Source of the DNA: Lachnospiraceae bacterium
GTDB lineage: Bacteria > Bacillota > Clostridia > Lachnospirales > Lachnospiraceae
NCBI GenBank assembly: GCA_022797375.1
Contig: JAAWKM010000018.1
Span: forward strand, 1 to 38,765
Direction of reading: 5' to 3'
DNA length: 38,765 bases
Position numbers and translations under genes: made by a program. Below, piece after piece: positions 86 to 25,351 of this stretch. Within the stretch, counting starts at the first letter, position 1, and each line of letters starts with the position of its first letter. The notes below the pieces were generated by a model. The model did no database searches. It saw nothing but the letters and a program-made list of their open reading frames with translations, and had not been told where the DNA came from.

Positions 86-289
86 TTTCCAGTTATCCTT
101 TGCTGGCAAACTGACGCAGGGTTTCCAGTGCCAGGGCGGGTTTATTCCACTCCAGGGCACACTTGCGCTACAGTAACCCACACAGGGGCTTAAATGCCGG
201 CGGGGTTAAAGTGCACCTGTCATGAAATAAACCCGCCCTGGCATATGGAACCTGCTGTCTTCTGTCAGACCTGGAATTATAACTGGAAA
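86..289 (+). repeat. Nested palindromic repeat, copy 1a (forward)
   Basis: This 204-bp element is bounded by TTTCCAGTTAT (86-96) and ATAACTGGAAA (279-289). Inside, 129-149 pairs with 223-243 (20 of 21 positions). GACGCAGGGTTT near the left end mirrors AACCTGCTGTC near the right end, so nearly the whole unit folds into one long hairpin. Its apex lacks the extra tip hairpin seen in other copies. It forms the left half of an inverted pair with copy 1b. The function is unknown. The architecture resembles a MITE or a paired REP-like element, but no transposase is nearby. Confidence 0.85.
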
Positions 290-433
290 TTTTATTGTGT
301 GCTGAATTATCCAGATAAACGGGAGGTACTGCAATATTATTTATATGGCGGCAAATGGAATAAATGCTGTCATATGGTGTGTGGAACATATCACTTCAAA
401 TTTACAATAAACCCCGGATAATAAAATTAACAG
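290..433. repeat. Spacer between repeat copies 1a and 1b
   Basis: This AT-rich stretch holds no credible gene. Positions 307-334 (TTATCCAGATAAACGGGAGG and following bases) and 397-415 match the mini-repeat at 33222-33262. There the two pieces are joined directly, so about 62-65 bp (335-399) look inserted here or deleted there. A diverged form of the first piece is at 24718-24737, next to copy 3a. Confidence 0.65.
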
Positions 434-689
434 TTTCCAGTTATATTATTCACTTTGCCAGAAGACAGCAGGTTTCACATGTCCAGGCTGGTATTATTCC
501 ATGACAGAAGCACTTTGGCCCCGCCGGCGTTTGAATCTGGTTTTTTCAGATTTTATGCGCCGTTGCGTGGGCTGATGTAACGGAATGCGTGCAAAAGCCA
601 TGTCTGCGACATGCTTTCCTGGAATGGAATAATACCAGTCCTGGCACTGGAAACCCTGCGTTCGTTTCCAATCACAGTATAACTGGAAA
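434..689 (-). repeat. Nested palindromic repeat, copy 1b (reverse)
   Basis: This 256-bp copy has the same termini as 1a but lies in opposite orientation. The conserved body reads in reverse order: the gaagacagcagg end first, the GCCGGCG / GCGCCGTTGCGTGGGC core in the middle and the ccctgcgtt end last. The tip is AATCTG / CAGATT around a T-rich loop, the reverse complement of the tip of copy 2a. The outer flank continues to 707. Positions 679-707 are the exact 29-bp reverse complement of 9946-9974, the left end of cluster 2. Confidence 0.87.
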
Positions 690-814
690 TTTTATGAAAC
701 GGACGTGTTATTTATCCATTTTTTACTTGCGGACTGCTGCCACTCGTAGTATTATGAAATACAAAGTGCCTTTTAATGGCGCAAACCAGGTAATATTTAT
801 TAGTGGAGGTAACA

Positions 815-1696
815 ATGCATCGTTTTTTACGGACCATTGGTTTTAGTAATATTAATACACGCCAGGATTTAGACAAACTGGTGGGCGTTATTATGGATAA
901 ACCAAACCTGACAAAGAAAGCCAGCCATAATGGTGAAAGTATATATACTGAAATAACAAAAGAATTCGCCCCTCATACGGGCATTACTCTTCGTGGGGAA
1001 TATGATAAATTAGGTTTTTTCTATCTTGACCATTATTTTCCATACTGCGAAAGCATACTTGTGACTTCTAATGAAGATGTTGTTGTCAACAAAAGGGTAG
1101 ATACAAGCGCATTTACTGGCATGTGTGATGATTTGCGGCTTGGCATTTCAATGATTTTTTATTTGCAGAACTCGGTTGACTATATACATTTAAATTGTCC
1201 TGAAAATACTCCTTGCAAGGCAAAGCTGTCTTTGTCAGGCCTGTCACTTGAAGGATGTATACTGCTTGGAATTGCACAAGACAGTGATTTACAGGAAAAG
1301 AAAAACCTGCGGACACACATACGCAGCCAGCTTATAGCTAAAGCAAAGGCTGGCAGCCAGGAGGCTATTGACAGCCTTACACTTGATGATATAGACCTGA
1401 GCGCACGTGTCAACAGGCGTATACGGACAGAAGATTTATACAGTATTGTTGAAACAAGCTTTATCCCATATGGTTCTGAGTCAGACAATTATGCTATACT
1501 TGGCACAATTATTAACTGGAATAAAGCTCTGAACCCTTATACCAATGAATATATTTACCAGCTTTTATTAAACTGCAATGATATTATAATGAATGTCTGT
1601 ATTAATAGCAAAGACCTGGCAGGCGAACCAATGGCTGGCAGAAGATTTAAGGGTACAATATGGATGCAGGGACATGCAAGTTTTATACATGCTTAA
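815..1696 (+). CDS. DUF3881 family protein
   Basis: This 293-residue soluble protein of unknown function opens MHRFLRTIGFSNI and resembles the DUF3881 family common in Lachnospiraceae. There is no signal peptide or membrane segment. The middle carries a polar helical stretch (roughly residues 160-200, RTHIRSQLIAKAKAGSQEA). The ATG at 815 is chosen because GGAGG sits a few bases upstream; an in-frame GTG at 803 has no such site. The gene lies alone on the plus strand behind repeat cluster 1. Its stop codon overlaps the stop of the convergent penicillin-binding protein gene in a shared TTAA at 1693-1696. The family call is from memory of the N-terminal pattern. Confidence 0.8.
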   Translation: MHRFLRTIGFSNINTRQDLDKLVGVIMDKPNLTKKASHNGESIYTEITKEFAPHTGITLRGEYDKLGFFYLDHYFPYCESILVTSNEDVVVNKRVDTSAFTGMCDDLRLGISMIFYLQNSVDYIHLNCPENTPCKAKLSLSGLSLEGCILLGIAQDSDLQEKKNLRTHIRSQLIAKAKAGSQEAIDSLTLDDIDLSARVNRRIRTEDLYSIVETSFIPYGSESDNYAILGTIINWNKALNPYTNEYIYQLLLNCNDIIMNVCINSKDLAGEPMAGRRFKGTIWMQGHASFIHA

Positions 1697-4113
1697 GGTA
1701 CACCTGTTAACAATTCTGTCTCTGTAGAATTTATATGCAGGTTACATTTTTTATGGGGCTGCGTGCCACCTGCAAAGTATTCGGGGCGTACCTGGGAACT
1801 GCTATACACAGAACCACATGCCCCAGTATTGGCAAGCAGCCCTGATGAAGTACAGATATTATATGAAACAATTCCATCTGGTTCTTTAAAGCTCTTTTCT
1901 TCCAGTTTCATTCTTTTATGGATTTTCTCCATAATATCTTTCCACATCCTTTTATGGAAATTTCCAGAAGGCTGTGGTGTATTTATATCATACCCTGTCC
2001 ATATGCCAGCAGTATAATATGGCGTATAACCTTCAAACCAGTAGTCTGTATTATCAGAAGTAGTTCCTGTTTTGCCAGCCTGCGCAGTCCCTATTTCTTC
2101 AAACTTTGCTGCTGTGCCTGTACCATATGATATTACATCTTCCATAGCATTTGTAAGCAGCCATGCTGTAGATTCTTTCATAACCTTTTTTGAGACAGGT
2201 TCATTTTTTAACAGCACATTGCCATCATGGTCAATTATTTTTGTATAAAAAACAGGTTCAATATATGTCCCTCCATTTGCTATACTTGCATAGGCAGCTG
2301 TAAGTTCAAGGTTTGTAACACCATCTGTAAGCCCGCCAAGTGCCGTAGGCAGTTGTATATCAGTGTATATTTTTCCATCTTCAGACTGCTTTTTATCTAC
2401 AAGTGTAGAAAATCCTAAGTTTAGAAGATAGTCAAATCCTGTCTGTGGTGACACCTTTTCAAATGTCTTTACTGTTACTACGTTATTAGAATGGACAATT
2501 GCGTCACGCAGCGTAATAAACCCCCTGTAACCTGAACCATCCCAGTTCCTTACTGTAATATCCGTCCCAGGATATTTATAAGGGGCATCCTCCTCAACAC
2601 TGGCAAGCGTCATGCCACATGTGTCAAGTGCCGGCAGGTAGGTTGAAAGAATTTTAAATGTTGAACCAGGCTGCCTCTTGGAAGAAACTGCCCTGTTAAA
2701 TGTCCTGTCTGCAATTTTCCTTCCCCTTCCACCTGTTATTGCCTGTACATGCCCATTATACTGGTCAAGCAGTACAAATGATGCCTGTGGCTGCTTAATG
2801 AAATTAATGCTTTCGCTGGTAATTTCACTATCTTCATTTAAAATACTTTTCTTAAAAGCATTTATATATTTGTCTGCGCTTTTCTTCTTTTTAAAATAAA
2901 GGCTTATTTCCCTGCCCTTATTACTGGAATAAAAAGACTGTATATCCTTTTCTGTATAATTTGATATTTCCCCATCAGGGCTTTTTACAGACAAAGCGTA
3001 TGAAAGATATTTTACTGTCCCTTTTGGATAATAGCTGTCATTATTTATAACGCTGTCGCAAATATCCTGTAGTTCCTTTTTCTGGCATGAATATATCTTA
3101 AGCCCTCTTCTGTAAACTGCATTATATGCCTGTGTTTCAGTATATCCAAGCTCTTGTTTAAGGTCTTTTATTACACTGTCTATAACTGCATCCACATAAT
3201 AAGAATTGACAAGGATTTTCGCTGAAGATTTTTTTTCATTGACCTGCTTTATATATGAATAAACATCATCACCAAGTGCATCCTCATACTCATCTTCTGA
3301 AATAAAGTTATGTTCCAGCATTGCTTTAAGCACAAGTTTGCGTTTTGCAGCATTATTCTCCTGGTTAGTGATAGGATTGTATTCTGTAGGGTTCTGTGTA
3401 ATTCCAGCAATAACAGCAGCTTCTGAAATATCCAGCTCCGATACAGATTTATCGAAATACCTTTTGCTTGCTGCTTCAACTCCCAAAGTATTCTGGCCAA
3501 GGTTTATTGTATTAAGGTAATACTCCAAAATCTGGTCTTTATCCATATTGTTTTCAAGGTCAATTGCAAGGCACTGTTCCTGTATTTTACGTGTAAACCT
3601 TGCAAAAAATGACGTTTCATTGCCACCTCCGAAAACCTGGTTTTTAAGGAGCTGCTGTGTAATGGTACTTGCGCCCTGTTCCAGCCCTTCACGGTTTATA
3701 ACACCAGTATACACAGCCCTGATTATTCCCTTTAAGTCTATTCCCTTATGTTCATAAAACCTTGCATCTTCAATTGCTATAAATGCATGCTGTACATCTT
3801 CAGGAATCTGCCCTATATCTACATATATCCTGTTTGCATCAGAGCCTACAAGTGTCTGTGTCACATTTCCATCTGCATCATAAATTGTAGTCGCATAACC
3901 ACTTGGCATAAGTTCCACTTCTGACAGGGCAGGTGCACTGTCAACCAGCCCGCGCAGCACACCTGCAGCGCAAAAAGCAACAACCAGCAGTGAAACAAAT
4001 AATATAATAATAAAACTTACAATACTATAAAGTTTAACCCTGTTTATGATTTTGCTCTTTGGAGACGCAAGAATTTTGATTTTTCTTCTAATCTGCTGTT
4101 CGCCATAGTTCAT
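1693..4113 (-). CDS. Class A penicillin-binding protein (PBP1A type)
   Basis: This is a bifunctional peptidoglycan glycosyltransferase/transpeptidase of 806 residues that polymerises lipid II and cross-links stem peptides outside the membrane. A single N-terminal membrane anchor spans residues 27-52. The GT51 domain shows EDARFYEHKG (catalytic Glu115) and GASTITQQL (147-155). The transpeptidase domain shows STFK (Ser484-Lys487), SNN (542-544) and KTGT (681-684). The region 300-430, between the domains, is Lys-rich and poorly conserved. The start has a GAGGG site six bases upstream. The gene follows purA at 150 bp on the same strand, with a strong hairpin between them, so it may have its own promoter. 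The family call is secure; the exact paralogue is not. Confidence 0.95.
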   Translation of the reverse strand: MNYGEQQIRRKIKILASPKSKIINRVKLYSIVSFIIILFVSLLVVAFCAAGVLRGLVDSAPALSEVELMPSGYATTIYDADGNVTQTLVGSDANRIYVDIGQIPEDVQHAFIAIEDARFYEHKGIDLKGIIRAVYTGVINREGLEQGASTITQQLLKNQVFGGGNETSFFARFTRKIQEQCLAIDLENNMDKDQILEYYLNTINLGQNTLGVEAASKRYFDKSVSELDISEAAVIAGITQNPTEYNPITNQENNAAKRKLVLKAMLEHNFISEDEYEDALGDDVYSYIKQVNEKKSSAKILVNSYYVDAVIDSVIKDLKQELGYTETQAYNAVYRRGLKIYSCQKKELQDICDSVINNDSYYPKGTVKYLSYALSVKSPDGEISNYTEKDIQSFYSSNKGREISLYFKKKKSADKYINAFKKSILNEDSEITSESINFIKQPQASFVLLDQYNGHVQAITGGRGRKIADRTFNRAVSSKRQPGSTFKILSTYLPALDTCGMTLASVEEDAPYKYPGTDITVRNWDGSGYRGFITLRDAIVHSNNVVTVKTFEKVSPQTGFDYLLNLGFSTLVDKKQSEDGKIYTDIQLPTALGGLTDGVTNLELTAAYASIANGGTYIEPVFYTKIIDHDGNVLLKNEPVSKKVMKESTAWLLTNAMEDVISYGTGTAAKFEEIGTAQAGKTGTTSDNTDYWFEGYTPYYTAGIWTGYDINTPQPSGNFHKRMWKDIMEKIHKRMKLEEKSFKEPDGIVSYNICTSSGLLANTGACGSVYSSSQVRPEYFAGGTQPHKKCNLHINSTETELLTGVP

Positions 4114-4195
4114 ATAATACCCTCATTCTGTCAAAACGGATATAATACTCCGCAAATACTTAACATGTTCCTGCCTGGTATTTCCACAGTATTGC

Positions 4196-4230
4196 AAAAT
4201 AACTGCTACAAGCTGTGCAGCAGTTATTTT
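4196..4230 (-). terminator. Terminator-like hairpin between purA and the PBP gene
   Basis: A perfect 12-bp stem pairs AAAATAACTGCT (4196-4207) with AGCAGTTATTTT (4219-4230) around an 11-nt loop. It lies 37 bases past the purA stop. A-rich and T-rich stem bases on both sides let it act on either strand. It probably ends the purA transcript. Confidence 0.65.
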
Positions 4231-4266
4231 ATAAGTACCATAAGGCAATGCCCCTGGTATGGAATT

Positions 4267-5550
4267 TTACTTGCGGTATATTATATCTGTCCTTTTTGGC
4301 CCGTTTGATACCATTTTAACAGGAACACCAATCTGTTTCTCAATAAATTCAACATATCTGCGGCAGTTTTCTGGAAGTTTTTCATATTCAGTTATGCCAC
4401 ATATGTCAGTTTCCCACCCAGGCAGTACCTCATATACAGGTTTTGCCTTGGCAAGTTTCGCTGTTACTGGGAAGTCTGTTACTACTTCCCCGTTAATTTC
4501 ATAACCCGTACATACAGGTATTTCTTTGAGATAGCCAAGACAGTCAAGCACTGTAAGCACTACTTCTGTAGCACCCTGCATCTGGCATCCATAGCGTGTT
4601 GCAACTGCATCAAACCACCCCATACGCCTTGGGCGGCCTGTCGTTGCGCCATATTCACCGCCATCACCGCCATGTCTCCTTAACTTATCTGCCTCTTCTT
4701 CATCAAGTATTTCACTTACGAACTCACCTGCGCCAACTGCACTTGAATATGCTTTTACTACTGTAACAATCCTTTTTATCTCATATGGAGGTATTCCTGC
4801 ACCAACTGCGCCATATGCAGCAAGTGTAGAAGATGAAGTAACCATAGGGTATATTCCATGGTCAGGGTCTTTTAATGAGCCAAGCTGTCCTTCAAGCAGT
4901 ATATTCTTTCCTTCTCCAAGTGCCTTCCTGAGAAAAGCAGAAACATCACATACATAAGGTGCAACTATATCACGGTAACTATGCAGTGTTTCCAGAAGTT
5001 CTTCTTCATTAATTTCTGGTTTGTTATAAAGATGCTTTAACAGTATATTTTTCTGTGTACAAATTCTTGAAATCTTCTCTTTTAACGTATTATCATCAAG
5101 AAAGAGTTCTGAAACCTGTATGCCTGTTTTAGCATATTTATCTGAATAAAATGGAGCAATACCTGATTTGGTAGAGCCAAATGACTGTTTGCCAAGACGC
5201 TCCTCCTCATACTCATCAAATGCTATATGGTATGGCATAACCACCTGGGCCCTGTCAGATATAAGCAGCTTAGGTGCTGGCACTCCTCTTTTCTCCAGTC
5301 CTTCTATTTCGTTGAAAAGATATGGGATATTTAATGCTACGCCATTACCTATTACATTGGCTGTATGGTTATAAAAAACGCCTGAGGGAAGCAGATGTAA
5401 AGCAAATTTACCATAATCATTGATTATCGTATGCCCCGCATTGCTTCCACCCTGGAAACGGACAATAATATCCGACTCCTTTGCAAGCAGGTCAGTAATC
5501 TTACCCTTGCCTTCATCTCCCCAGTTAGCTCCAACAATAGCTGTTACCAT
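4267..5550 (-). CDS. purA: Adenylosuccinate synthetase
   Basis: PurA joins IMP and aspartate using GTP to give adenylosuccinate, the first step from IMP to AMP. The 427-residue protein starts MVTAIVGANWGDEGKGKITD, with the family's GDEGKGK GTP loop, followed by NAGHTI. Later motifs are GSTKSGIAPFYSDK, DPDHGIYPMVTSSST and TTGRPRRMGWFD. The third of these differs from the usual GTTxxGIGPAYxDK, which suggests a diverged subfamily rather than loss of function. The ATG at 5550 has GGAGG seven bases upstream; a longer frame to 5583 lacks any site. A small hairpin (TGCCG/CGGCA, 5566-5582) precedes the ribosome site. It follows the HD-GYP gene by 73 bp. Confidence 0.96.
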   Translation of the reverse strand: MVTAIVGANWGDEGKGKITDLLAKESDIIVRFQGGSNAGHTIINDYGKFALHLLPSGVFYNHTANVIGNGVALNIPYLFNEIEGLEKRGVPAPKLLISDRAQVVMPYHIAFDEYEEERLGKQSFGSTKSGIAPFYSDKYAKTGIQVSELFLDDNTLKEKISRICTQKNILLKHLYNKPEINEEELLETLHSYRDIVAPYVCDVSAFLRKALGEGKNILLEGQLGSLKDPDHGIYPMVTSSSTLAAYGAVGAGIPPYEIKRIVTVVKAYSSAVGAGEFVSEILDEEEADKLRRHGGDGGEYGATTGRPRRMGWFDAVATRYGCQMQGATEVVLTVLDCLGYLKEIPVCTGYEINGEVVTDFPVTAKLAKAKPVYEVLPGWETDICGITEYEKLPENCRRYVEFIEKQIGVPVKMVSNGPKRTDIIYRK

Positions 5551-5565
5551 AATATTCCTCCATTC

Positions 5566-5582
5566 TGCCGTTTTATGCGGCA
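5566..5582 (-). promoter_or_regulatory. Leader hairpin before purA ribosome site
   Basis: TGCCG (5566-5570) and CGGCA (5578-5582) form a 5-bp stem. On the transcribed strand it runs directly into CAGAATGGAGG, the leader box described under findings. The same arrangement precedes the Cys-rich gene at 11915. A role in mRNA stability or translation is inference. Confidence 0.4.
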
Positions 5583-5623
5583 AGTCTTATATTAACAATC
5601 CTTTGCACCCATTATGGCATGTA

Positions 5624-6790
5624 TTATATTATTATGTTCTGGATGCGTATGGAAGTTTCCGTTGATAAATCATAGTATTTGTCACCAACTTTTACTACAG
5701 GCTTAGAAAGTTCTTTCCTGTTAATCATAATAACCCTGCCTGTTTCACCAGTTGTAAGTTTTACTTTAGTATTTACATATGCATGTGCTGCTTTTTCAAG
5801 AAATTGCAGTAAGAATTTTACATCATATTTCACAAGGCCTTCCCTTTCAAACATATGTATAACTTCAAATGGGCAGATTGCCGGACGGTAAGGCCTGTCA
5901 GTTGTCATTGCATCATATGTATCTGCTATAGCTACAATCCTTGCAAATTCCTCTATCTGGTCTCTTCTGAAACCACCAGGATAGCCGCTTCCATCGCACC
6001 TTTCATGATGGCGCATGGCAACTTCTGCAATGCGCGGGTCAATATTAAGCCCTTTTAAAATATTGTTGCCATGGAATACATGTGTCTTTGCAATATTATA
6101 CTCAGGAAGTGTAAGCCTTCCAGTTTTATTAATAACCTCTTCTGGTACAAGTATTTTGCCAATATCACATAAAAGCCCTGATAATGTAAGGACTTCCAGT
6201 TCTTCGTGGGATATTTCAGGATACACAGTCCTTCCTATAAGGTTGCTTAATAATGCAACATTCATACAATGCACATAAGTAACATCATCATATCCCCTCA
6301 TACACTGCAGCATATCAAGTATATGGAAACTGTTCCTGCCCTTTGATACTACTTCTTTGACATCTGAAAGCAGAAGAGATGTGTCAATTTCTTCGTTCTT
6401 CATTACAACACTGTTGAATACATTTTTAAGGTCATCCACACTTTCCATAAATGCATTCTCAAATTCCCGGAATTCCTTAGTTTCACTAGTATTTGGGATT
6501 CCATCATCTTCAGGAATTTCTAATATACCAGACTCTATGGCAAGGTCTTCACCATTCATATCCTCTGCCATTGTTTCTTGCTCCTGTTCATCCATAAGTA
6601 CAGGAGTAACTCCGTCCCCGCCTGTATCGACCCTGATTGCAAATACTGAGTGGTCTTTTAATGCTGCTATTATATCTTCTGTAAGGACAGTTCCTTTAGG
6701 GATAATAAGCTGGTTATCCGTTGTATAAACATCTTCAGATGTCACCATATTAACTCTGGCTTTGGTTGTTAAAATTCTTTTACTTGCCAT
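5624..6790 (-). CDS. HD-GYP domain protein with altered HD motif
   Basis: This 388-residue cytoplasmic protein belongs to the HD-GYP family, whose active members hydrolyse cyclic di-GMP. The HD-GYP core covers about residues 155-345: His174, DIGK at 209-212, His240, HHERCDGSGYP (261-271) and Asp290 in ADTYDAMTTDRPYRP. The usual HDIGK reads CDIGK, so Cys208 replaces a metal-binding His. Activity may be lost or the metal site changed. Residues 1-110 hold an acidic linker and no recognised domain; the C-terminal 45 residues look like a small beta-rich tail. It lies between purB and purA with no obvious link to purine synthesis. The start follows GGGGG. Confidence 0.87.
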   Translation of the reverse strand: MASKRILTTKARVNMVTSEDVYTTDNQLIIPKGTVLTEDIIAALKDHSVFAIRVDTGGDGVTPVLMDEQEQETMAEDMNGEDLAIESGILEIPEDDGIPNTSETKEFREFENAFMESVDDLKNVFNSVVMKNEEIDTSLLLSDVKEVVSKGRNSFHILDMLQCMRGYDDVTYVHCMNVALLSNLIGRTVYPEISHEELEVLTLSGLLCDIGKILVPEEVINKTGRLTLPEYNIAKTHVFHGNNILKGLNIDPRIAEVAMRHHERCDGSGYPGGFRRDQIEEFARIVAIADTYDAMTTDRPYRPAICPFEVIHMFEREGLVKYDVKFLLQFLEKAAHAYVNTKVKLTTGETGRVIMINRKELSKPVVKVGDKYYDLSTETSIRIQNIII

Positions 6791-6842
6791 AATGCCCCCA
6801 ATCTGCCTGGATACCAGTCTTTATATTTTACTGGCACAGGGC

Positions 6843-6878
6843 TTATACCTATTATATAGTTTCTTTATACCTATTATA
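6843..6878. repeat. Short direct repeat at the purB stop codon
   Basis: TTATACCTATTATA occurs at 6843-6856 and again at 6865-6878, a 22-bp period. The second copy contains the purB stop codon. It looks like a local slippage duplication. Confidence 0.7.
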
Positions 6879-8328
6879 CTGTTATTTCTGCTTTTATTCC
6901 AAGAATATCCTTATTAGCATCAAGCACAGGTTTTACAAATCCGTTTATATATTCTTCAACCTGTGATGCAGCACGTCCTGTATACTTTGAAGGCTGCAGT
7001 GCACCCTTAAGTTCTTCTTCACCTGCTGGGAATTTATCACTTTCTGCAATAAGCTGTAAAAGGTTGTTTTCCCTGCCATATTTCTTAACATTTTCTCCTG
7101 CTTCCATAGAAAGCCTGCGTATTTCCTCATGGAGTTCCTGCCTGTTGCCTCCTGCCTTTACAGCATCCATCATTATATTCTCTGTCGCCATAAATGGAAG
7201 TTCTGCCATAAGGTGTTTTTCTATAACTTTGTCATAAACTACCAGGCCATCTGCTACATTTGCCAGCAAATCAAGTATCCCGTCTGTTGCAAGGAAACCT
7301 TCTGGTATACTTATACGCTTATTGGCAGAATCATCAAGAGTACGTTCAAACCACTGGCACGCTGATGTATACATTGCATTTGTAACATCTGACATAACAT
7401 ATCTTGAAAGTGATGTAATCCTTTCACATCTCATAGGATTACGCTTATACGCCATTGCGGAAGAGCCTATCTGGTTCTTTTCAAATGGTTCTTCTACTTC
7501 TTTAAGATGCTGCAAAAGGCGTATATCACATGCAAATTTATGCGCACTTGCTGCAATTCCCGCAAGTACATTTAACACACGCGTATCAAGTTTGCGTGAA
7601 TATGTCTGTCCTGATACTGGGAAACATCCGCTAAATCCCATTTTATCCGCAATTATTGTTTCAAGTTTCTTGACTTTTTCTTCGTCACCATCAAACAGTT
7701 CCATAAAACTTGCCTGTGTGCCAGTTGTGCCTTTAGAGCCTAAAAGCTTTATTGTGGAAATTACATAATCTAAATCTTCCAAATCCATCATAAATTCCTG
7801 TATCCAGAGGGTTGCACGCTTACCAGCAGTTGTAGGCTGTGCTGGCTGGAAGTGCGTAAATGCCAGTGTTGGAAGGTCTTTGTATTCCATAGCAAAAGCG
7901 GCGAGTTTGTCTATTACATTTATAAGCTTTACACGTACAAGCCCTAGTGCTTCTGACATAACTATAATATCTGTGTTATCACCTACATAACATGAAGTAG
8001 CACCAAGATGTATAATACCCGCTGCACCCGGGCACTGTACACCATATGCATATACATGCGACATTACATCATGGCGCACAAGTTTTTCACGTTCCTTTGC
8101 AACTTCATAATTTATATCTTCTGCATGTGACTTTAATTCCTCAATCTGTTCCGCTGTAATGGCTGGCTCTCCTTTTTCATTCTTAAGGCCAAGTTCATTT
8201 TCAGCCTCTGCAAGTGCAATCCAGAGTTTCCTCCATGTCCTGAACTTTTTATCTGGTGAAAAAATGTATTGCATTTCTTTACTTGCATAACGCTCTGAAA
8301 GCGGGCTTGTATATCTGTCGTTGCTCAT
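6874..8328 (-). CDS. purB: Adenylosuccinate lyase
   Basis: PurB releases fumarate from SAICAR and from adenylosuccinate, so it acts twice in purine synthesis. The 484-residue product has the fumarase/aspartase superfamily features: TSCYVGDNTDI near residue 110, HFQPAQPTTAGKRA near 160 and the signature GSSAMAYKRNPMRCERI near 295. Usual signatures read SSAMPYKRNP; here Ala replaces Pro. The start follows GAGG inside a leader box identical over 18 nt to that of trpS. It lies 79 bp downstream of purF, with a hairpin between. Confidence 0.96.
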   Translation of the reverse strand: MSNDRYTSPLSERYASKEMQYIFSPDKKFRTWRKLWIALAEAENELGLKNEKGEPAITAEQIEELKSHAEDINYEVAKEREKLVRHDVMSHVYAYGVQCPGAAGIIHLGATSCYVGDNTDIIVMSEALGLVRVKLINVIDKLAAFAMEYKDLPTLAFTHFQPAQPTTAGKRATLWIQEFMMDLEDLDYVISTIKLLGSKGTTGTQASFMELFDGDEEKVKKLETIIADKMGFSGCFPVSGQTYSRKLDTRVLNVLAGIAASAHKFACDIRLLQHLKEVEEPFEKNQIGSSAMAYKRNPMRCERITSLSRYVMSDVTNAMYTSACQWFERTLDDSANKRISIPEGFLATDGILDLLANVADGLVVYDKVIEKHLMAELPFMATENIMMDAVKAGGNRQELHEEIRRLSMEAGENVKKYGRENNLLQLIAESDKFPAGEEELKGALQPSKYTGRAASQVEEYINGFVKPVLDANKDILGIKAEITV

Positions 8329-8373
8329 CTTTTTTCCTCATTTCTGCGCTGCTGGTATTTACATATAAAGTGA

Positions 8374-8401
8374 ATCTGTGTTACAGCGCAATTACACAGA
8401 T
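8374..8401 (-). other. Hairpin between purF and purB
   Basis: ATCTGTGT (8374-8381) pairs with ACACAGAT (8394-8401) around 12 nt. No clear U-run follows on the minus strand, so partial termination or RNA processing between purF and purB is possible but unproven. Confidence 0.45.
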
Positions 8402-9945: not shown

Positions 9946-9994
9946 CACGTCCGTTTCATAAAATTTCCAGTTATTCTGTGTTTGGAAACGGACG
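9946..9994 (+). repeat. Outer arm and local hairpin at left end of cluster 2
   Basis: CGTCCGTTTC (9948-9957) pairs perfectly with GAAACGGACG (9985-9994), and the loop holds the terminal TTTCCAGTTAT. In copy 1b the equivalent hairpin is kept with one mismatch. The terminus can therefore either pair locally or pair with the far end of the element. Confidence 0.6.
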
Positions 9995-10193
9995 CAGGGT
10001 TTCTGTGTCCAGGCTGGATATTATTCCATGACAGAGCACGCTTCCGCTACACCGGCCCACGCAGCGGCGCATAAAATCTGAAAAAACCAGATTCAAACGC
10101 CGGCGGGGCCAAAGTGCTTCTGTCATGGAATAATAACAGCCTGGACATGTGAAACCTGCTGTCTTCTGGAATACCCATAGTTATAACTGGAAA
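9964..10193 (+). repeat. Nested palindromic repeat, copy 2a (forward)
   Basis: This 230-bp unit between purF and the GH3 gene is bounded by TTTCCAGTTAT and ATAACTGGAAA (10183-10193). Arms 10006-10034 and 10120-10147 are complementary nearly throughout. The inner core GGCCCACGCAGCGGCGCATAA pairs in part with CAAACGCCGGCGGGGCC. The apical tip is AATCTG / CAGATT around an A-rich loop. The body matches copy 1a in order and sequence. Confidence 0.88.
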
Positions 10194-10214: not shown

Positions 10215-10430
10215 ATAACTTTTCTGAAGACAGGTTCCGCGTACCAGATACCAGCAATATTCCGTAAAAGGGGTACTTTAACCCCGCCGGCATTTAAGTT
10301 CCTGTGCCCTGGAAGAAACGTAAGTTTCTTTCAGGGTACAGGGGCTTTATGTGCCGTTGCGTGGGTTACCGTAGCGGAAGCGTACCCCTGTGCGGAATAT
10401 TCTGGTTCTGGCACAGGAAGCGTCCGTCAG
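10215..10430 (-). repeat. Nested palindromic repeat, copy 2b (reverse, end truncated)
   Basis: A reverse-oriented copy starts about 20 bp after 2a. It keeps the body (gaagacagg, CCCCGCCGG, GTGCCGTTGCGTGGG, gtagcggaagcgt, gtccgt) but has lost both clear termini; the right end runs into the GH3 stop region. Its tip is unlike that of 2a: 10301-10319 pairs with 10324-10342 over 19 positions with two G-T pairs around GTAA. Boundaries are approximate. Confidence 0.75.
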
Positions 10431-15245: not shown

Positions 15246-15344
15246 CACATGTCCGTTTCATAAAATCCCCATGCCGTGCTTTGCATGGCACAAATAGTAA
15301 TGAAAAATGCTGTTTTTGCATTTTTCATTACTATTTCCAGTTAT
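15246..15344 (+). repeat. Lone repeat end with inserted hairpin module
   Basis: CATGTCCGTTTCATAAAAT (15248-15266) matches the outer arm of cluster 2. TTTCCAGTTAT (15334-15344) matches the terminus. Between them lies a module absent from 9946-9974: hairpin TGCCGTGC/GCATGGCA (15272-15290) and a perfect 15-bp stem, 15296-15310 with 15318-15332. No body follows; the phosphorylase gene ends at 15374. The same module bounds the window at both ends. It lies between the trpS leader and the galactoside operon. Confidence 0.82.
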
Positions 15345-18017: not shown

Positions 18018-18140
18018 ACTCTGCACCAGGCACTAAGCAGAAATGCCTGTACCTTATCCTTTCTTTATTTTATTTATTCCAATCCACTCCCGGTATCCCC
18101 ATGCATCCACTGCTGCCAAGATTGTCTGTGGCAATTTATT

Positions 18141-18161
18141 CCCTGTCTTTAGAGGACAGGG
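18141..18161 (-). other. Hairpin spanning the alpha-galactosidase stop codon
   Basis: CCCTGTC (18141-18147) pairs with GACAGGG (18155-18161), and the loop holds the TAA stop. No U-run follows. It may mark an RNA-processing or stability point between the galactosidase and kinase genes, which are 131 bp apart in an otherwise compact operon. Confidence 0.4.
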
Positions 18162-20347
18162 AAATTTTCGCTAATCTTAGTTAAAGCCACCTGGTATGAA
18201 TTATATTCACCCAGGCTGCATATAACAGGCATGCCTGCTTCCATAAGCGCTGCACCCTGGTAACATAATCCGCTCTCTTCATCCTTATATACAGCATTTC
18301 CATCAAGACCTTTTAGCTTCACATAAGAAACAGGCATATTCCCATGGATTTCATTAATTATAACACTTAACAGCACCTGGCGCCTGTCTTTTGAAATATT
18401 TTCCCATGCAGTAAATACATCATTAAACGGGTCTGATAAACGGTAATAATCTCCTGACTGGATTAAACCTGCATATTTTTTATACGTTTTTACCTGCTGC
18501 CTGGTTTCTTCTTTCTCTTCCTCTGAAAGCTTTGCAAGGTCAAGTTCATAACCAAATATACCTGACATTGCAGCCACCCCTCTTGTTTTAAGGCTTGTAA
18601 TACGCCCCGTCTGGTGGTTTGGTACTGCTGATACATGTGAGCCAGATACAGACGCCGGATAGAAAAACGATGTGCCATATTGTATCTTAAGGCGGTCTAT
18701 GGCATCTGTGTTATCACTGCACCAGATTTGTGGTGTATAATAAAGCATCCCTGCATCAAACCTTCCACCACCGCCACAACAGCCTTCTACCAGTATATCC
18801 GGGTAGCGTGCCAGCAGTTTTTCCAGAAAATCATATACGCCAAGCACATAATTGTATGCCACACATCCTGGAAAGCTCTGGCTGGAATAAAGTTCTGAAA
18901 GGTTGCGGTTCATATCCCATTTTATATATTCAATATTTGCCTGGTCTAATACGGCACAAATCTGTCTAAATATATATTCCCGCACATCCTCCCTTGAAAA
19001 ATCAAGTACAAGCTGGTTTCTTGAACGCAATGGCTGCCTTCCGGGTATCTGCAGCACAAAATCCGGGTGCTCCCTGTAAAGCCTGCTGTCTTCTGAAACC
19101 ATTTCTGGTTCAAGCCATATGCCAAACTTAACATTTTGTTTATTTACATTTTCTACTAATTCACCAAGCGTGCAGCCAAGTTTTTTTTCATTTACAGTCC
19201 AGTCACCAAGCCCTGAATTGTCACTGTCCCTGTTGCCAAACCAGCCATCATCCATAACAACCAGCCCTATGCCAAGGGAAGCGGCTTCTTTTGCAAGGTT
19301 TATTATAGTATTACCATCAAAATCAAAATAAGCAGCCTCCCAGCTGTTAACCAGTACCGAACGGCACTCTTTCTTATATTTGCCACGGCAGATATGGTCA
19401 CGTATACAGTTATGGTATTTTAATGATAACTCTGAGAACCCGTTTTCTGAATAGCATAAAATTGTTTCTGGCACAACAAGTGACTGCCCTTTTTCCAGCG
19501 GATAATAAAACTGTTCACTCTGCAGCCCCATTATAACCCTTGCCTGCCCAAACTGGTCTTTGCCTGCTTCACACTGGAAATTGCCACTATACACAAATAA
19601 CATGCCATAACATTTCCCATAATCCTCTGTTGTGCCATGTTCTGCCAGTATTACACCTGGATTATGCTGGTGGCTTGAAGCCCCCCTGCGGCTTCCAATC
19701 CTGGTTTCTGTATGTGAAACAGGGACACGCTCTATATTGCGCTCCATTGTATGCCTGCCATGGAAATGTATAAAATCATAATCACCTGGAAGCAAATCAA
19801 GACATGCAGATGCTGCCTTTTCTATTACAAACTGTTCTTTGCCATTATTTGTAATTATAGCACTTCTTGTAATAATATCCTCATCTTCCAGTACACCATA
19901 AAGAAGTTTTACACATACTCCGTTTAATTTATCTTCAAGTATAACTGAAAGGGTTTCTGCACTATCCTCATCTGCATATACAGCGGGGAGCCCTTTTAAA
20001 TTGTATTTGCCTTTTATTATTTCATGTGATACATATCTTAAATCACAGCACTCACTATAATCCGCATTGCGGATTATTAGTGCTGTACTGCGGTTATCCC
20101 CAGTCCCTAGGACTGGGTATTCCTGTGGTAATGTGTCTAAAGAGTATGTGCGGTTATCTGCCATTTCTGCCGGGTTTCCAGAAAATCCCCTGTCTGCATA
20201 AGTAACCAGATACTCCATGTCCTGGCATACATTTTTGCCATAGTACAAATGCAGCAAGTAGCCAAGCTGGTCTGCCTTCATCTGGTAAGTTGTATTTTTT
20301 GTCTGTAAGCTGAAAATCCTTTTTTCCTGGTTATAAATAACTGCCAT
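18149..20347 (-). CDS. GH36 alpha-galactosidase
   Basis: This 732-residue family 36 enzyme removes alpha-1,6-galactose from raffinose, stachyose or melibiose. Motifs with positions in this product: MDDGWFGNRD near 365, EPEMVSEDS near 413, YIKWDMNR with the nucleophile Asp478, CCGGGGRFD near 523 and WCSDNTDAIDR with the acid/base Asp545. It has no signal peptide, so it acts on imported sugar. The ATG at 20347 follows GGAGG by six bases; an upstream in-frame start at 20368 has none. It matches the N-terminal half of the fused AgaSK protein, whose kinase half is the next gene. It lies 57 bp after the second permease gene. Confidence 0.94.
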   Translation of the reverse strand: MAVIYNQEKRIFSLQTKNTTYQMKADQLGYLLHLYYGKNVCQDMEYLVTYADRGFSGNPAEMADNRTYSLDTLPQEYPVLGTGDNRSTALIIRNADYSECCDLRYVSHEIIKGKYNLKGLPAVYADEDSAETLSVILEDKLNGVCVKLLYGVLEDEDIITRSAIITNNGKEQFVIEKAASACLDLLPGDYDFIHFHGRHTMERNIERVPVSHTETRIGSRRGASSHQHNPGVILAEHGTTEDYGKCYGMLFVYSGNFQCEAGKDQFGQARVIMGLQSEQFYYPLEKGQSLVVPETILCYSENGFSELSLKYHNCIRDHICRGKYKKECRSVLVNSWEAAYFDFDGNTIINLAKEAASLGIGLVVMDDGWFGNRDSDNSGLGDWTVNEKKLGCTLGELVENVNKQNVKFGIWLEPEMVSEDSRLYREHPDFVLQIPGRQPLRSRNQLVLDFSREDVREYIFRQICAVLDQANIEYIKWDMNRNLSELYSSQSFPGCVAYNYVLGVYDFLEKLLARYPDILVEGCCGGGGRFDAGMLYYTPQIWCSDNTDAIDRLKIQYGTSFFYPASVSGSHVSAVPNHQTGRITSLKTRGVAAMSGIFGYELDLAKLSEEEKEETRQQVKTYKKYAGLIQSGDYYRLSDPFNDVFTAWENISKDRRQVLLSVIINEIHGNMPVSYVKLKGLDGNAVYKDEESGLCYQGAALMEAGMPVICSLGEYNSYQVALTKISENFPVL

Positions 20348-20404
20348 AATAATCCTCCATTCCTGCAAAAGCCTGGCTTCATAATCTGTAAACTTCTGCT
20401 GGAT

Positions 20405-21244
20405 TTATTTTACTGCGCCATTAACAACACCATTTATAATCTGTTTCTGGCAAATTATATAAAATATAAGTATTGGTATTAATGATAATAAGTATGATGC
20501 AAATGCAAGGTTGTAATTAGTGCCAAACTGTGACTGGAAATTCATCTGTGCAAGCGGAAGTGTATTTACTCCTGAACCAGCCATAATAACAAGCGGAGTC
20601 ATTACGTCATTCCATACTGTCAGTGCTGTTATTACTGCAACTGTTGCATGCATTGGCTTCATAAGCGGGAATATAACTTTCCAGTATGTCCTCCATGTAG
20701 ATGCACCATCCACCCTTGCTGCCTCTTCAAGCGCTATAGGTATATTTACAAGATACCCTGAATAAAGCATTATGTTCATTGGCATATAAAATACTACATA
20801 AAGGAGTATTACACCAGACCAGTTTGTAAGCCCAAGCTCTGCTGTTTCCTTTGCAAGAGGCATCATAAGTATTGCAAATGGCACAAACATACCACTTACA
20901 ATAAAAAGGTATACAAATCCATAAAATTTACTGTGGTTTTTATTTCTTCCAAGTACATACCCAATCATGGAATGTACCAGTATTGAAAGCACAACTGTAA
21001 CAATTGTAATTAAAAGGCTGTATCCAAGTGAATGCCAGAAATCAGTAACTTCCATTGCTTCCCTGAAGTTATCAAAACTCCAGTGTTTAGGCAATGACAA
21101 TATGCCACTTATTGTATTTGACATTTCAGAAGGCTGCTTAAAAGCAATTACAATAGTCATATATAATGGAAACGCAATAGTTGACAGCCCAAGGATTAAA
21201 AGTACCATTGGAAGCCAGGCTGGATTTAATTTTTGTTTCATCAT
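20405..21244 (-). CDS. Sugar ABC transporter permease (MsmG/RafG type)
   Basis: This is a 279-residue inner-membrane permease of the CUT1 sugar family with about six membrane helices. The conserved loop EEAARVDGASTWRTYWKVIFPLMKP (around residue 180) contacts the ATPase. Its start overlaps the preceding permease stop by ATGA, so the two are translationally coupled. Operon context suggests uptake of raffinose-type galactosides. No ATPase gene is in this operon. Confidence 0.92.
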   Translation of the reverse strand: MMKQKLNPAWLPMVLLILGLSTIAFPLYMTIVIAFKQPSEMSNTISGILSLPKHWSFDNFREAMEVTDFWHSLGYSLLITIVTVVLSILVHSMIGYVLGRNKNHSKFYGFVYLFIVSGMFVPFAILMMPLAKETAELGLTNWSGVILLYVVFYMPMNIMLYSGYLVNIPIALEEAARVDGASTWRTYWKVIFPLMKPMHATVAVITALTVWNDVMTPLVIMAGSGVNTLPLAQMNFQSQFGTNYNLAFASYLLSLIPILIFYIICQKQIINGVVNGAVK

Positions 21245-22107
21245 AACTGCTCCTCCTTCTTACCAGAAAATTTCATCTGTGCTACAGAAATAGCTACAAT
21301 TACTATAAAGAACACTACGGCATTGGCACTCTGGAAACCAAACTGCCCGCCTTTCATACCATTATTGTATATAAGGTATGAAATGGACTCTGTACTCTGT
21401 GCAGGACCACCCTTAGTCAGTGCCATAATCTGGTCAAATACCATTAAGAAGTTCTTAACACAAAGTACCATGTTAATACTGAAAAATGGTACAATTAACG
21501 GGAATGTCAGTTTCCAGAACTTCTTCCAGCCTGTTGCTCCATCAAGTGAACCAGCCTCATATACATCTTCTGGAACAGTCTGTAAGCCTGATATATAAAT
21601 AATTGTATTCATTGCAACTGCCTGCCAGGCACATACAACCACTATGCCTATCCATGCTGTATTTTTACTTGCAAGTATACTTGTCTTTAAAGCCCCAATA
21701 CCTGCCATTTCAGCTAATGCTGGGACAAGGTATGTAAAGAAGTAGTTAAAAATATAACCAACAACCAGTGCCCCAAGTACATTAGGAAGGAAATATGCGC
21801 CACGGAAAAACCCCTTTGCACGGATTTTACTATTTAATGCAAGTGCAAGGAGAATACTAAGCACATTTACAACAATTGTTGTAACAACTGCAAGTTTAAT
21901 AGTAAAAATATATGAACTTCCTACCCTTGCATCAGAAAACAAATCAATATAATTCCTAAAACCAACCCATTCATAATTTCCAAATCCCCTGAAATTAGTA
22001 AAACTATAAACTACACCCCTAAGCAGCGGGATTGTATTAAATGTAATAAATAATGCTAATATAGGAATAGTAATTAGCAGATAAGTACGCTTCTTGTCGT
22101 TTTTCAT
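21241..22107 (-). CDS. Sugar ABC transporter permease (MsmF/RafF type)
   Basis: This 288-residue permease partner has an N-terminal helix and about six membrane segments. The ATPase-contact loop YEAGSLDGATGWKKFWKLTFPLIVP lies near residue 185. GGAGGG precedes the ATG. It is 11 bp after the binding-protein gene and overlaps the next permease by 4 bp. It forms the heterodimeric channel with that protein. Confidence 0.92.
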   Translation of the reverse strand: MKNDKKRTYLLITIPILALFITFNTIPLLRGVVYSFTNFRGFGNYEWVGFRNYIDLFSDARVGSSYIFTIKLAVVTTIVVNVLSILLALALNSKIRAKGFFRGAYFLPNVLGALVVGYIFNYFFTYLVPALAEMAGIGALKTSILASKNTAWIGIVVVCAWQAVAMNTIIYISGLQTVPEDVYEAGSLDGATGWKKFWKLTFPLIVPFFSINMVLCVKNFLMVFDQIMALTKGGPAQSTESISYLIYNNGMKGGQFGFQSANAVVFFIVIVAISVAQMKFSGKKEEQL

Positions 22108-22118
22108 TTTAATCCCTC

Positions 22119-23399
22119 CTATTCATTATTATTTTGCTCATATTCCTGGACTTTACGTATAGTATCACGGTTATAACGCTGCCAGTTTTTATCAAATGTT
22201 TCCAAGAAACCATTTACATCCTGTTCAATAAGGAATGTCTGGAGCAACGCATCCACTGACATTTCACCTGGATAATAATGGTCATGGAAATCCGCCATTT
22301 TGCCTGCCTCAATATACTCTGACATGCCATCAAGCATTGATGCAAGTTTAAAATCCCCTTCTTTGCATGGAATTGCATTCTGCGCATCAGCATACTTCTG
22401 TATATTTTCATCTTCAAAAAGGAAATTTAAAACTTCATAAGCAGCTTCCTTGTTCTCACATGCCTCCGTAACACAGAACTGCAGGTCAATTCCTGAATTA
22501 AGGGTGTTGCCATCAGAACTGTCACTTGCAGGCATTACAAATGAATCAATATTTAAATCAGGGTTTACAGAAAGTATCTGTGGCACAGCATAACTTCCTA
22601 TAGGGTACATTACAGATTCCCCTCTTGCAAATGCTGTACATGCATCATTATAACTGTATGCAAACGGTGACTCAGGTCCATACTCTAGTAAGCTTAAATA
22701 CTTCTTTGCAGTTTCTGCATATTCTTTTGTAAAAGTAGTTTCTCCCCTGTTCACCCTTTTAACAGTATCTGGCTCTGTAAGCCCGACTGCTATTGCATTC
22801 CAAGGTGCCATACAGCTCCATGTATCTTTAAATCCGAAATAGAATGGCAGCATACCCTTTGCCTTAATATCTTTGCAAAGTGTTATAAATTCATTCCAGT
22901 TATTTGGGATTTTCCATCCGTTCTCTTCAAATAAATCCCTGTTATAAAGAATACCTGCTGCATTTGCCATATATGGTATAGCAAATGTGCCTTCTGTTGG
23001 CACAATTTCAAGCGATTCATCAATATCCCTGTAAACCTGCTTAATATTATTTAAACCTTCATAACCAGAAACATCTGCCAGTATCTGTGCATCCACATAA
23101 TAAGAATACTCTATATCCCCTCCAATACCAACAATGTCAGGGTAATCCTCCCTTATAAATCTTGTTCTTAAAATTGCCGCTGCATCATTAGGTGAATTAA
23201 TCGTGAGGTGTATGTCGTCATGTGTCTTATTAAATTCTTCCTCAACCATTTTAAAATAGTTGGAAGCTTCTGGCTTATATTGCAAAATTTCAATTTCTGT
23301 TACAGAGCTGTCTTTTTTAGAACCGCACCCCTGTAAAGAAATAATACATGCCAGCATACAGCCAGTAAATAGTAATCTTGCGAGTCTCCTTCCCTTCAT
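22119..23399 (-). CDS. Sugar ABC transporter binding lipoprotein (MsmE/RafE type)
   Basis: This is a 426-residue extracellular solute-binding protein, family 1. The signal peptide ends in lipobox LQGC (Cys25), then a mature domain opening TEIEILQYKPEASNYF. Features typical of the family are WKIPNNWNEF near 145 and the NSGIDLQFCVTEACENKEAAYEVLNFL stretch, split by the hinge. It is the first gene of the galactoside operon, with GGAG before the ATG and the AraC-type gene divergent upstream. The substrate is inferred from the neighbouring GH36 gene. Confidence 0.93.
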   Translation of the reverse strand: MKGRRLARLLFTGCMLACIISLQGCGSKKDSSVTEIEILQYKPEASNYFKMVEEEFNKTHDDIHLTINSPNDAAAILRTRFIREDYPDIVGIGGDIEYSYYVDAQILADVSGYEGLNNIKQVYRDIDESLEIVPTEGTFAIPYMANAAGILYNRDLFEENGWKIPNNWNEFITLCKDIKAKGMLPFYFGFKDTWSCMAPWNAIAVGLTEPDTVKRVNRGETTFTKEYAETAKKYLSLLEYGPESPFAYSYNDACTAFARGESVMYPIGSYAVPQILSVNPDLNIDSFVMPASDSSDGNTLNSGIDLQFCVTEACENKEAAYEVLNFLFEDENIQKYADAQNAIPCKEGDFKLASMLDGMSEYIEAGKMADFHDHYYPGEMSVDALLQTFLIEQDVNGFLETFDKNWQRYNRDTIRKVQEYEQNNNE

Positions 23400-23430
23400 A
23401 GTGACTTCTCCTTTCGTTTTTGATAATAAA

Positions 23431-23535
23431 ATTGTATCATGCCATTATGCTATCTAAAATAGCGTGTTTATTGCAGTTTTATGCCAAAATGCTGTTTTTA
23501 AAATATATATTGAAAAACACATAGCATTTTGGTAT
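23431..23535 (-). promoter_or_regulatory. Galactoside operon promoter and AraC-type operators
   Basis: ATGCCAAAATGCT (23481-23493) and AGCATTTTGGTAT (23523-23535) are inverted copies, 12 of 13 matching, with centres 42 bp apart. On the minus strand TGATACAAT gives an extended -10 (TACAAT at 23436-23431) without a good -35, as expected for an activated promoter. The nearer site lies roughly 60 bp before the predicted start. A small palindrome, GCTATCTAAAATAGC, lies between. Binding by the adjacent AraC protein is inference. Confidence 0.65.
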
Positions 23536-23576
23536 ATTTGTAATAATAATCAAAACTGCCAAAGGGGATTTTTCTA

Positions 23577-24431
23577 ATGAGCGAAGTTATTTTTTCAGTA
23601 TTTCCAAGTGAAAACTTTATTGATATGGGACTATACCAGTTTGGCTGGGAACAGTGTGACCCCTCACACTCCTTTGGTCCTGCTGCAAGAAACCACTTCT
23701 TATTCCATTATGTCATATCTGGTACAGGTTTATTAATGGCAATGAATTCCAATGGTGACACAGTGCAGTATTCTATTAAAAGCGGACAGGGGTTTATGCT
23801 ATTCCCACAGCAGATATGCACATACATAGCAGACAGCAGGATACCTTGGGAATATGCCTGGCTTGAATTTGACGGCCTGCGCGTAAAACAAACTATTGAA
23901 ATGGCAGGACTTAATATAAACAGTCCTGTATACAAGGCAAGATATAAAGATATTGCACAGGCCATGAAAGATGAAATGTTGTATATTATAAACCATAAAG
24001 ACGCCTCGCCATTCCACTTAATAGGGCATCTCTATCTTTTTATTGACGCACTGCTCCGTTCTTCTAATTCTACACAGATAACAAAAGGAAATACATTAAG
24101 GGATTTTTATATTAAAGAAGCAATTTCATATATAGAACAGAACTTCCAGAATGAAATCACAATAAAAGATATTGCAAAATTCTGCGGACTGGACAGAAGC
24201 TACTTTGGTAAAATATTCCATGAAAACATTGGAAAAACCCCACAAGAATTTTTAATCTCATACCGTATGACAAAAGCAGCAGAATTATTAAAGCTGACAG
24301 ACTTGCCAGTGGCCTATATAGGAAATGCAGTTGGATATCCAAACCAGCTTCATTTCTCACGTGCATTTAAAAATGTTTATGGAAAATCTCCAAGACAGTG
24401 GAGATACGAAAATGCAGTACCAGCAAAATAA
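23577..24431 (+). CDS. AraC family transcriptional regulator
   Basis: This 284-residue regulator has an N-terminal cupin-like sugar-sensing domain (about 15-160) and two C-terminal helix-turn-helix motifs. The motifs are ITIKDIAKFCGLDRSYFGKIFHENIG near 200 and VAYIGNAVGYPNQLHFSRAFKNVYGKSP near 248, the standard AraC signature. It is divergent from the galactoside operon, as MsmR/RafR genes often are, and probably activates it when galactosides are present. AAAGGGGA precedes the ATG. Repeat cluster 3 starts seven bases past its stop. Confidence 0.93.
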   Translation: MSEVIFSVFPSENFIDMGLYQFGWEQCDPSHSFGPAARNHFLFHYVISGTGLLMAMNSNGDTVQYSIKSGQGFMLFPQQICTYIADSRIPWEYAWLEFDGLRVKQTIEMAGLNINSPVYKARYKDIAQAMKDEMLYIINHKDASPFHLIGHLYLFIDALLRSSNSTQITKGNTLRDFYIKEAISYIEQNFQNEITIKDIAKFCGLDRSYFGKIFHENIGKTPQEFLISYRMTKAAELLKLTDLPVAYIGNAVGYPNQLHFSRAFKNVYGKSPRQWRYENAVPAK

Positions 24432-24445
24432 AATGGCGGGGATAA

Positions 24446-24700
24446 TTTCCAGTTATCTTTTTTGGCAGACGGACGCAGGGTTTTATGTGTCTGGCTAAAT
24501 TTATTCCATTACAGGGCACGTTCCCACTACGTTAGCTCACGCAGCGGCGCATAAAATCCCTATGTTGCAAAAAATTTATATTTTTTGCAACATAGGGATT
24601 TAAACGCCGGCGGAGCTAAAAGTGCCCCTGTTATGGAATAAATTTAGCCAGACACTTTAAACCTGCTGTTTACTGGCAAAACCAGTATTATAACTGGAAA
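24446..24700 (+). repeat. Nested palindromic repeat, copy 3a (forward)
   Basis: This 255-bp unit has the usual termini and body (GACGCAGGG, CACGCAGCGGCGCATAAA, AAACGCCGGCGG, AAACCTGCTGT). The tip is a perfect 21-bp stem, 24554-24574 with 24581-24601, unlike any other tip in the window. Next to it, 24718-24737 carries the diverged spacer motif TTATTCAGACAAACGGCAGG. Confidence 0.88.
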
Positions 24701-25071
24701 TTAAGTTGTGTGGAAGGTTATTCAGACAAACGGCAGGATAACACAGAAATATACCATATCCGTTTTATAAACCAGCAATATATATAAAAATTACCTAGTC
24801 AGTTATAATTTGCATTTATGAGTTGTACATATATGTTCTGCTCTAATTAAAGTTATTTTATAATAATATAACCAGCAATTTTTGTACAAGATTATATTTA
24901 TGAAACAGGCATAGCTAAAATATTAAAAAATATTGCATTATTGAAACATAAGCAATTAAAGTCTGAATACTGTATTTAGAATATAAGCTGGAACTAGTAA
25001 ATCAATTTTTAAAACATAATTTACAGTTGTAATATTATCCTGGATTTTATTGCAAATTTACAAATATTACA

Positions 25072-25306
25072 ATGACAGGTTGCACATGCCGGATACCAGT
25101 AATTATTCCGTAAAAGGGGTACTTTAGCCCCGCCAGTGTTTGTATCCCGTTTTAAATATAAAAAAGGAACGGCAGTTTCTTTTTTATATAGGGATACTAT
25201 GCACTGTTGCGTGGGCTGACGTAGCGGAAGCGTACCCCTGTACGGAATATTCTGGTTCTGGCATGTAAAACCGTCCGTTTTACAATAAACCCAAGATAAC
25301 TGGAAA
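25072..25306 (-). repeat. Nested palindromic repeat, copy 3b (reverse)
   Basis: A reverse copy with body CCCCGCCAGTG, GCACTGTTGCGTGGGC, gtagcggaagcgt and terminus ATAACTGGAAA (25296-25306). Its left terminus is not recognisable, so that boundary is approximate. The tip pairs 25156-25170 with 25175-25189 with one G-T pair, inside TATCCC/GGGATA (25143-25148, 25191-25196). Confidence 0.78.
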
Positions 25307-25351
25307 TTATCCCCACTCCCACTTGCCGGTTTCCTGGTAAGTGTTGTATTT

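Follow-up and report, generated by a model that had tools for sequence, protein, structure and literature searches.

The window, by which the whole analysed stretch of 38,765 nucleotides is meant, contains the six structured units which had been described in an earlier note on this DNA. Two covariance models were used for searching: R1 has 19 training sequences, five of them from this genome including the unit at 10022, and R2 has 87 training matches, all from other genomes and chosen with R1. At E<=0.01 both models recover all six units and match nothing else in the window, R2 yielding an E value of 1.7e-7 or better for each (Table 1). The units form three divergent pairs (- +, - +, - +), an inverted pairing absent from the earlier note. 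The proposed folding into a hairpin was confirmed in the four units which were folded, each compared with 200 shuffled sequences, none of which was equally stable. Their size, which had been called constant, ranges from about 204 to 256 nt, and the shortened tip of unit 86-289 has the lowest model score of the six. The 11-mer TTTCCAGTTAT has 11 matches in the window at up to one mismatch, compared with 1.2 expected, and none of 100 shuffles reached this number. As to the termini which had been assigned to all six copies, the 11-mer is present at both ends of four units, at one end only of 25072-25306, and at neither end of 10215-10430. It marks an inner boundary; the end of the transposon carrying the units, in the following called the vehicle, lies 18 bp further out where it is seen. 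Pair 3 (24438-25314) has a different outer end, a 22-bp perfect repeat GGGGATAATTTCCAGTTATCTT in place of CACGTCC, which is a second end type in this genome; no target duplication was seen flanking this pair. Since both contig ends lie inside the Z module of the vehicle, this module accounts for the assembly breaks there.

Table 1. Features of the window, with the putative functional strand given for the units
Feature	Position	Strand	Evidence
Subterminal "Z" module of the first vehicle; the contig starts inside it	1..85		98.8% identity between window 1-86 and the end region, on contig C42, of a broken ISAs1-family element
Unit 1, shortened tip	86..289	-	R1 143-225, E 5.6e-10; R2 E 1.7e-7; fold z -9.1
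Spacer of pair 1	290..433		Position between divergent units; parts of its sequence recur in other composites
Unit 2	434..689	+	R1 500-606, E 1.3e-21; R2 E 5.7e-17; fold z -8.4
Outer terminal inverted repeat TTTTATGAAACGGACGTG, right end of vehicle 1	690..707	-	Exact match, 29-mer search
Outer terminal inverted repeat CACGTCCGTTTCATAAAA, left end of vehicle 2	9946..9963	+	Exact match, 29-mer search
Unit 3	9964..10193	-	R1 10022-10128, E 5.7e-31 (R1 training sequence); R2 E 4.4e-25
Unit 4, no 11-mer termini, long apical hairpin	10215..10430	+	R1 10262-10399, E 8.5e-20; R2 E 5.4e-19; fold z -13.6
Lone vehicle end, Z module and TTTCCAGTTAT, no tip	15248..15344		15267-15326 98.3% identical to Z of the ISAs1 element
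Left 22-bp terminal repeat GGGGATAATTTCCAGTTATCTT, pair 3	24438..24459	+	100% complementary to 25293-25314
Unit 5, long apical hairpin	24446..24700	-	R1 24502-24636, E 9.8e-23; R2 E 4.8e-20; fold z -15.4
Unit 6, long apical hairpin	25072..25306	+	R1 25108-25249, E 2.7e-24; R2 E 5.7e-22
Right 22-bp terminal repeat, pair 3	25293..25314	-	100% complementary to 24438-24459
Z module at the right end of the contig	38668..38765		Identity with the end region of the ISAs1 element, 100% along 98 nt

The vehicle of this genome

Many units of the genome lie inside a non-autonomous transposon with the outer ends CACGTCCGTTTCATAAAA..TTTTATGAAACGGACGTG. BLAST with one window unit as the probe found 83 pieces in the genome, and the genomic copies are often inverted pairs with a spacer. 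When CACGTCCGTTTCATAAAA was searched as a 28-mer with up to three mismatches, 52 forward and 54 reverse matches were obtained, 106 in total, compared with none for the reversed pattern. Target duplications were looked for at sixteen units whose two outer ends both lie in the examined stretches; two rows of this set share one right end. Five are flanked by 10-bp duplications with at most one mismatch (four exact; 0.0 in a mismatched-pair control), and two further rows have 10-bp duplications with two and three mismatches. Of the other lengths from 6 to 14 bp only one duplication was found, at 9 bp. The 11 of 16 units without a duplication at up to one mismatch count against the vehicle reading. 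One empty site was found, with a flank identity of 76% (L296 compared with L348).

A search of the genome for DDE_Tnp_1 gave nine matches, eight of them over the cut-off. One, on contig C42, adjoins CACGTCCGTTTCATAAA, which reproduces the 18-base outer end exactly over 17 positions (C42:4725-4741, stretch L466). Two pieces of this transposase match the ISAs1 family (E 1e-33 and 1.9e-19, the second just at the curated cut-off) and a third piece has no match; the gene is broken, and one end of the insertion sequence is visible while the other lies beyond the contig break. The contig ends in the Z module, 98-100% identical to window positions 1-86, 15267-15326, and 38668-38765. Because the same end and the same module adjoin ISAs1 transposase pieces on this contig, the vehicle is an ISAs1-type miniature inverted-repeat transposon (MITE). 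It has its terminal inverted repeats in common with an ISAs1 element of which a single end is visible, and its 10-bp duplication is of the length found in the family, where target duplications measure 8-10 bp. That the units sit in ISAs1-related miniature inverted-repeat transposons is concluded with high confidence. The new non-autonomous mobile element suggested earlier is thus borne out for the vehicle by outer inverted repeats, 10-bp duplications, 106 outer ends, and a broken ISAs1 relative. A match to a named IS-derived MITE had been put forward as a refutation; the ends do match an ISAs1-type element, and the hairpin core is left unexplained by such a match.

The outer 29-mer is absent from the 298 other family genomes sampled, and an exact search with its 25-mer core, from which the records of this genome were possibly left out, retrieved neither genome contigs nor viral ones. 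Vehicles without a tip also exist, one of 77 bp (L084) and one of 162 bp (L088:3890-4051). At L088:585-2660 (G000:C211) a gene which by eye resembles a GntR/aminotransferase-type (MocR) regulator takes the place of the spacer between two divergent units, and may be cargo or the result of a rearrangement. Within the spacer of another composite (L075:366-590, G000:C246) a partial IS200-like Y1 transposase is followed by a GC-rich hairpin.

The conserved tip

Within a unit the conserved part is the tip of the hairpin, about 107 nt long and built as a three-way junction in which a mini-hairpin bears a GNRA cap; its stems covary freely. Of 80 distinct sequences, 77 have a GNRA side loop (GAGA 35, GAAA 18, GCAA 8, GCGA 6, GGGA 5, GGAA 5) and the others AAAA (2) or ACAA (1), the third loop base being a purine in all 80; an internal loop UU/UAU is conserved in 60 of 80. 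In a first alignment of 19 tips (A1) two-sided changes were seen in 26 of 34 pairs. In the alignment of the 80 distinct sequences (A2) they were seen in 33 of 34, with 96.1% of 2693 cells paired as compared with 27-44% for slid partners. Two-sided cells numbered 872 compared with 246 in shuffles, so that covariation exceeds the controls; further pair types showed no excess (91 compared with 95.5 in shuffles).

Selecting the strand by G.U pairs and GNRA loops has a precedent (PMC2864571). A2 contains 79 G.U and 15 A.C pairs, counts from an alignment whose members were chosen with R1 and which was fitted to a model allowing G.U on the modelled strand. Forty-eight copies from the genome itself, recruited independently of R1, were considered at 79 column pairs whose pairing is predicted on both strands: G.U occurred 126 times, A.C 44 times, and other mismatches 160 times, a comparison for which the p-value is too small because the copies are related. 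The excess of G.U over A.C marks one strand. The structured RNA considered in the earlier note stands in so far as a fold under a one-strand pairing constraint is concerned, on the evidence of covariation and of G.U over A.C. What is observed is a conserved structure; that this passenger is RNA and constrained at the RNA level is likely, as judged from sequence data.

The tip is far more widespread than the vehicle of this genome. BLAST with a window unit found matches, mostly over the tip, in seven of 28 genomes of the genus, its own included, and elsewhere in the genus these tips sit on stems of other sequence. R1 at E<=1e-3 found the tip in 25 of the 28, again including its own. Absence of further copies, which would have spoken against a family, was refuted by this genome, where 133 of 139 scored candidates pass this threshold; G311 has 74 copies, G301 has 70, and G299 has 40. 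At E<=1e-5 the tip was present in 70 of 200 family genomes, this genome and one congener included, with copy numbers which are floors because scoring was limited to 19 candidates in each genome. Across 398 genomes sampled from the phylum, five matched at E<=1e-6, namely this genome, three others from its family, and G682, which belongs to another class. Rare or weak carriers could be missed in this sample, since the filters were strict and scoring stopped at nine candidates in each genome. The two tip matches in G682 (L417, L418; E about 1e-7) have longer apical stems, and transfer or mis-binning is possible. A pattern search of named genomes returned at least 120 stretches; among the matches listed, 66 of 80 titles name Lachnospiraceae or a genus assigned there, by which the sampled family is probably Lachnospiraceae. 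Viral contigs gave no exact pattern match.

Other genomes carry the tip in other surroundings. In G166 all four fetched copies lie in an element of 263-264 bp with the ends GGGTGTCAAAAGCCC, and 8-bp duplications, read by eye without a control, agree at 8/8 positions in two copies and at 7/8 in two. In G037, G094, and G311 other ends and no clear duplications were found. G110 has tandem head-to-tail arrays of two to four near-identical units (L243, L244, L245) with periods of 178, 187, and 137 bp. Adjacent units within 700 bp of each other, from 236 matches with orthologous and array copies included, are divergent in 25 cases, tandem in 11, and convergent in none. One hairpin copy was met in two genomes in different intergenic surroundings (L334:5452-5614 and L352:3028-3190, 96.9% over 163 nt); the two have a common 3' tail outside the palindrome, and no duplication is visible.

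Persistence at fixed sites could be followed in G207 and its sister species G718, which have 15 and 12 units at E<=1e-5, 11 of them occupying shared sites in the compared stretches. The G207 fold gave 734 scored pairs, of which 597 show no change, 87 a change on one side (54 broken), and 50 a change on both sides (35 still paired). These 50 two-sided changes compare with 11.9 expected from pooled independence, a figure which is too low because the loci differ in divergence. The 54 breaking one-sided changes indicate that the outer arms are only moderately constrained. For pairs predicted on both strands, with each species pair read in both directions and events therefore possibly counted twice, the two-sided changes are Watson-Crick in 48 of 55 counts and the one-sided changes are G.U in 22, A.C in nine, and other in 31, the strand test being weak here (22 compared with nine, p 0.03). 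In G191 and G207 the copies within a single genome have outer arms which bear no sequence relation from copy to copy but are complementary to each other, which had suggested arms copied from the target. This idea was dropped, as the arms at the orthologous G718 sites show compensatory changes by eye and in the counts.

Neighbouring genes were compared by position and direction only, so that a conserved gene partner may exist. While 194 units lie between genes, one lies inside a spanning open reading frame of at least 150 amino acids. Both flanking genes run in the direction of the unit in 59 of the 194 cases and opposite to it in 64, with 39 convergent and 32 divergent; this near-random orientation counts against a cis-regulatory leader with one fixed role. 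Promoter-like sites upstream of 139 single units (38 compared with 33.5 shuffled) are not clearly above the shuffled level, and a promoter belonging to the units was rejected on this ground; the density of TATAAT-like words is somewhat raised between -140 and -20, a region which AT-rich arms also occupy. For 132 single units the median distance to the gene is 122.5 on the 5' side and 72 on the 3' side, a difference found mostly where the end of the gene faces the unit (128.5 compared with 53), which points to additional element sequence on the 5' side of the hairpin. A scan for terminators (hairpin plus T run), confined to 60-800, gave one weak site with a shuffled mean of 0.8.

Interpretation and related elements

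The observations are probably best explained in two layers, as a structured-RNA hairpin family of Lachnospiraceae, new to Rfam, which is dispersed by miniature transposons. The vehicle would presumably be moved in trans by an ISAs1-family transposase. The strand directed outward from each divergent pair would then be transcribed, either from the spacer or through read-through, and its transcript would fold; this fold may be bound by, or be resistant to, a host RNA factor in processing, stability, or read-through control. Such an interaction could keep intergenic insertions harmless or useful, and a role of this kind would explain how the fold outlives its vehicles. The same tip occurs in about a third of the sampled family genomes, carried by vehicles whose ends differ or are not visible. 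A further-reaching version, offered tentatively and with more doubt than belief, would make the tip a selfish or host-adopted structured RNA independent of any vehicle: a single fold would have been acquired again and again by unrelated miniature transposons across the Lachnospiraceae, frequently in the form of a divergent pair which fires outward from a common spacer, and would persist at fixed sites by compensatory evolution after the vehicle has decayed.

Weighed against the two-layer explanation, a purely DNA-level element is unlikely. In this reading a protein of recombination or transposition would recognise the hairpin as a cruciform or as a fold of one DNA strand, and the arms would be kept complementary through template-switch correction of quasi-palindromes without selection on RNA. 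The long complementary arms of G191 and G207, unrelated between copies, would fit such an origin, as would the location of 194 units between genes, with one in a spanning open reading frame, and mini-loops of the GNNA type are stable in DNA too. Template-switch correction, however, would erase the unpaired loop and the one-sided side hairpin, both of which persist across genera, and the excess of G.U over A.C points to one strand, with a purine as the third loop base throughout. That the units are a plain ISAs1-derived MITE with the hairpin as functionless structural debris is very improbable. Such a reading accords with the outer ends, the 10-bp duplications, and the Z module in common with the ISAs1 element, and with the vehicles lacking a tip; as a full account it is largely refuted by a tip in 70 of 200 family genomes set against an outer 29-mer in 0 of 298, by the other vehicle in G166, and by the covariation in A2. 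REP/REPIN-type repeats moved by a RAYT (a Y1 tyrosine transposase) can scarcely be meant here. The units resemble them in being palindromic, intergenic, and numerous, and the Y1 remnant in composite L075 is the only Y1 match in the genome at E<=1e-5. At this threshold, in 35 genomes searched, some of them incomplete, Y1 was matched in 10 of 21 carriers as compared with 11 of 14 genomes without tip matches. RAYT as a general mover was rejected on this distribution, on the size of the units, and on target duplications of 10 bp and 8 bp.

Should the two-layer explanation hold, Rfam 15 would lack a large structured-RNA family present in a major bacterial family and matched by the model at least 133 times in this genome, and a folded RNA would be seen to outlive and change its transposon vehicles. 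A covariance model and orthologous sites are on hand for direct tests.

None of the 4227 Rfam families matched the window at its gathering score, and none matched 430-700 at E<=10. Among seven further loci searched at E<=1, six had no match on the unit, and at the seventh (L140) a miRNA model overlaps the hairpin with 34.7 bits at a gathering score of 245. Outside a unit, at L138:902-1170 on the minus strand, BsrG matched with 41.5 bits (gathering score 55). Among the papers listed by literature searches, none describes the repeat.

The REP/REPIN-like unit proposed earlier finds no support. Palindromes of that class measure 20-40 bp in PMC3733652, where bcr1 of the Bacillus cereus group is also named as a MITE. 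Like REP/REPIN elements with RAYT the window units are high-copy intergenic palindromes; unlike them they are much larger (204-256 nt), their vehicle duplicates its target, and a Y1 match is missing in 11 of 21 carriers. A palindromic class of candidate structured RNAs from human microbiomes, in which 20 of 250 are not predicted as terminators, is reported in PMC8040213. The likeness lies in the palindromic class; all four of the examples which it names come from Bacteroidetes, and the present family may overlap with other candidates of that work. The insertion sequences of the ISAs1 family and their MITEs agree with the vehicle in outer end, subterminal module, and 10-bp duplication, and differ from the units in that the visible part of the ISAs1 element has no conserved tip and that the tip also rides on another vehicle in G166. 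The bcr1 repeat is a short dispersed mobile repeat of about 155 bp with a conserved RNA-type fold, and is not known outside one group. From it the window family is set apart, by description only, in that here one fold extends across many genera and at least two vehicles.
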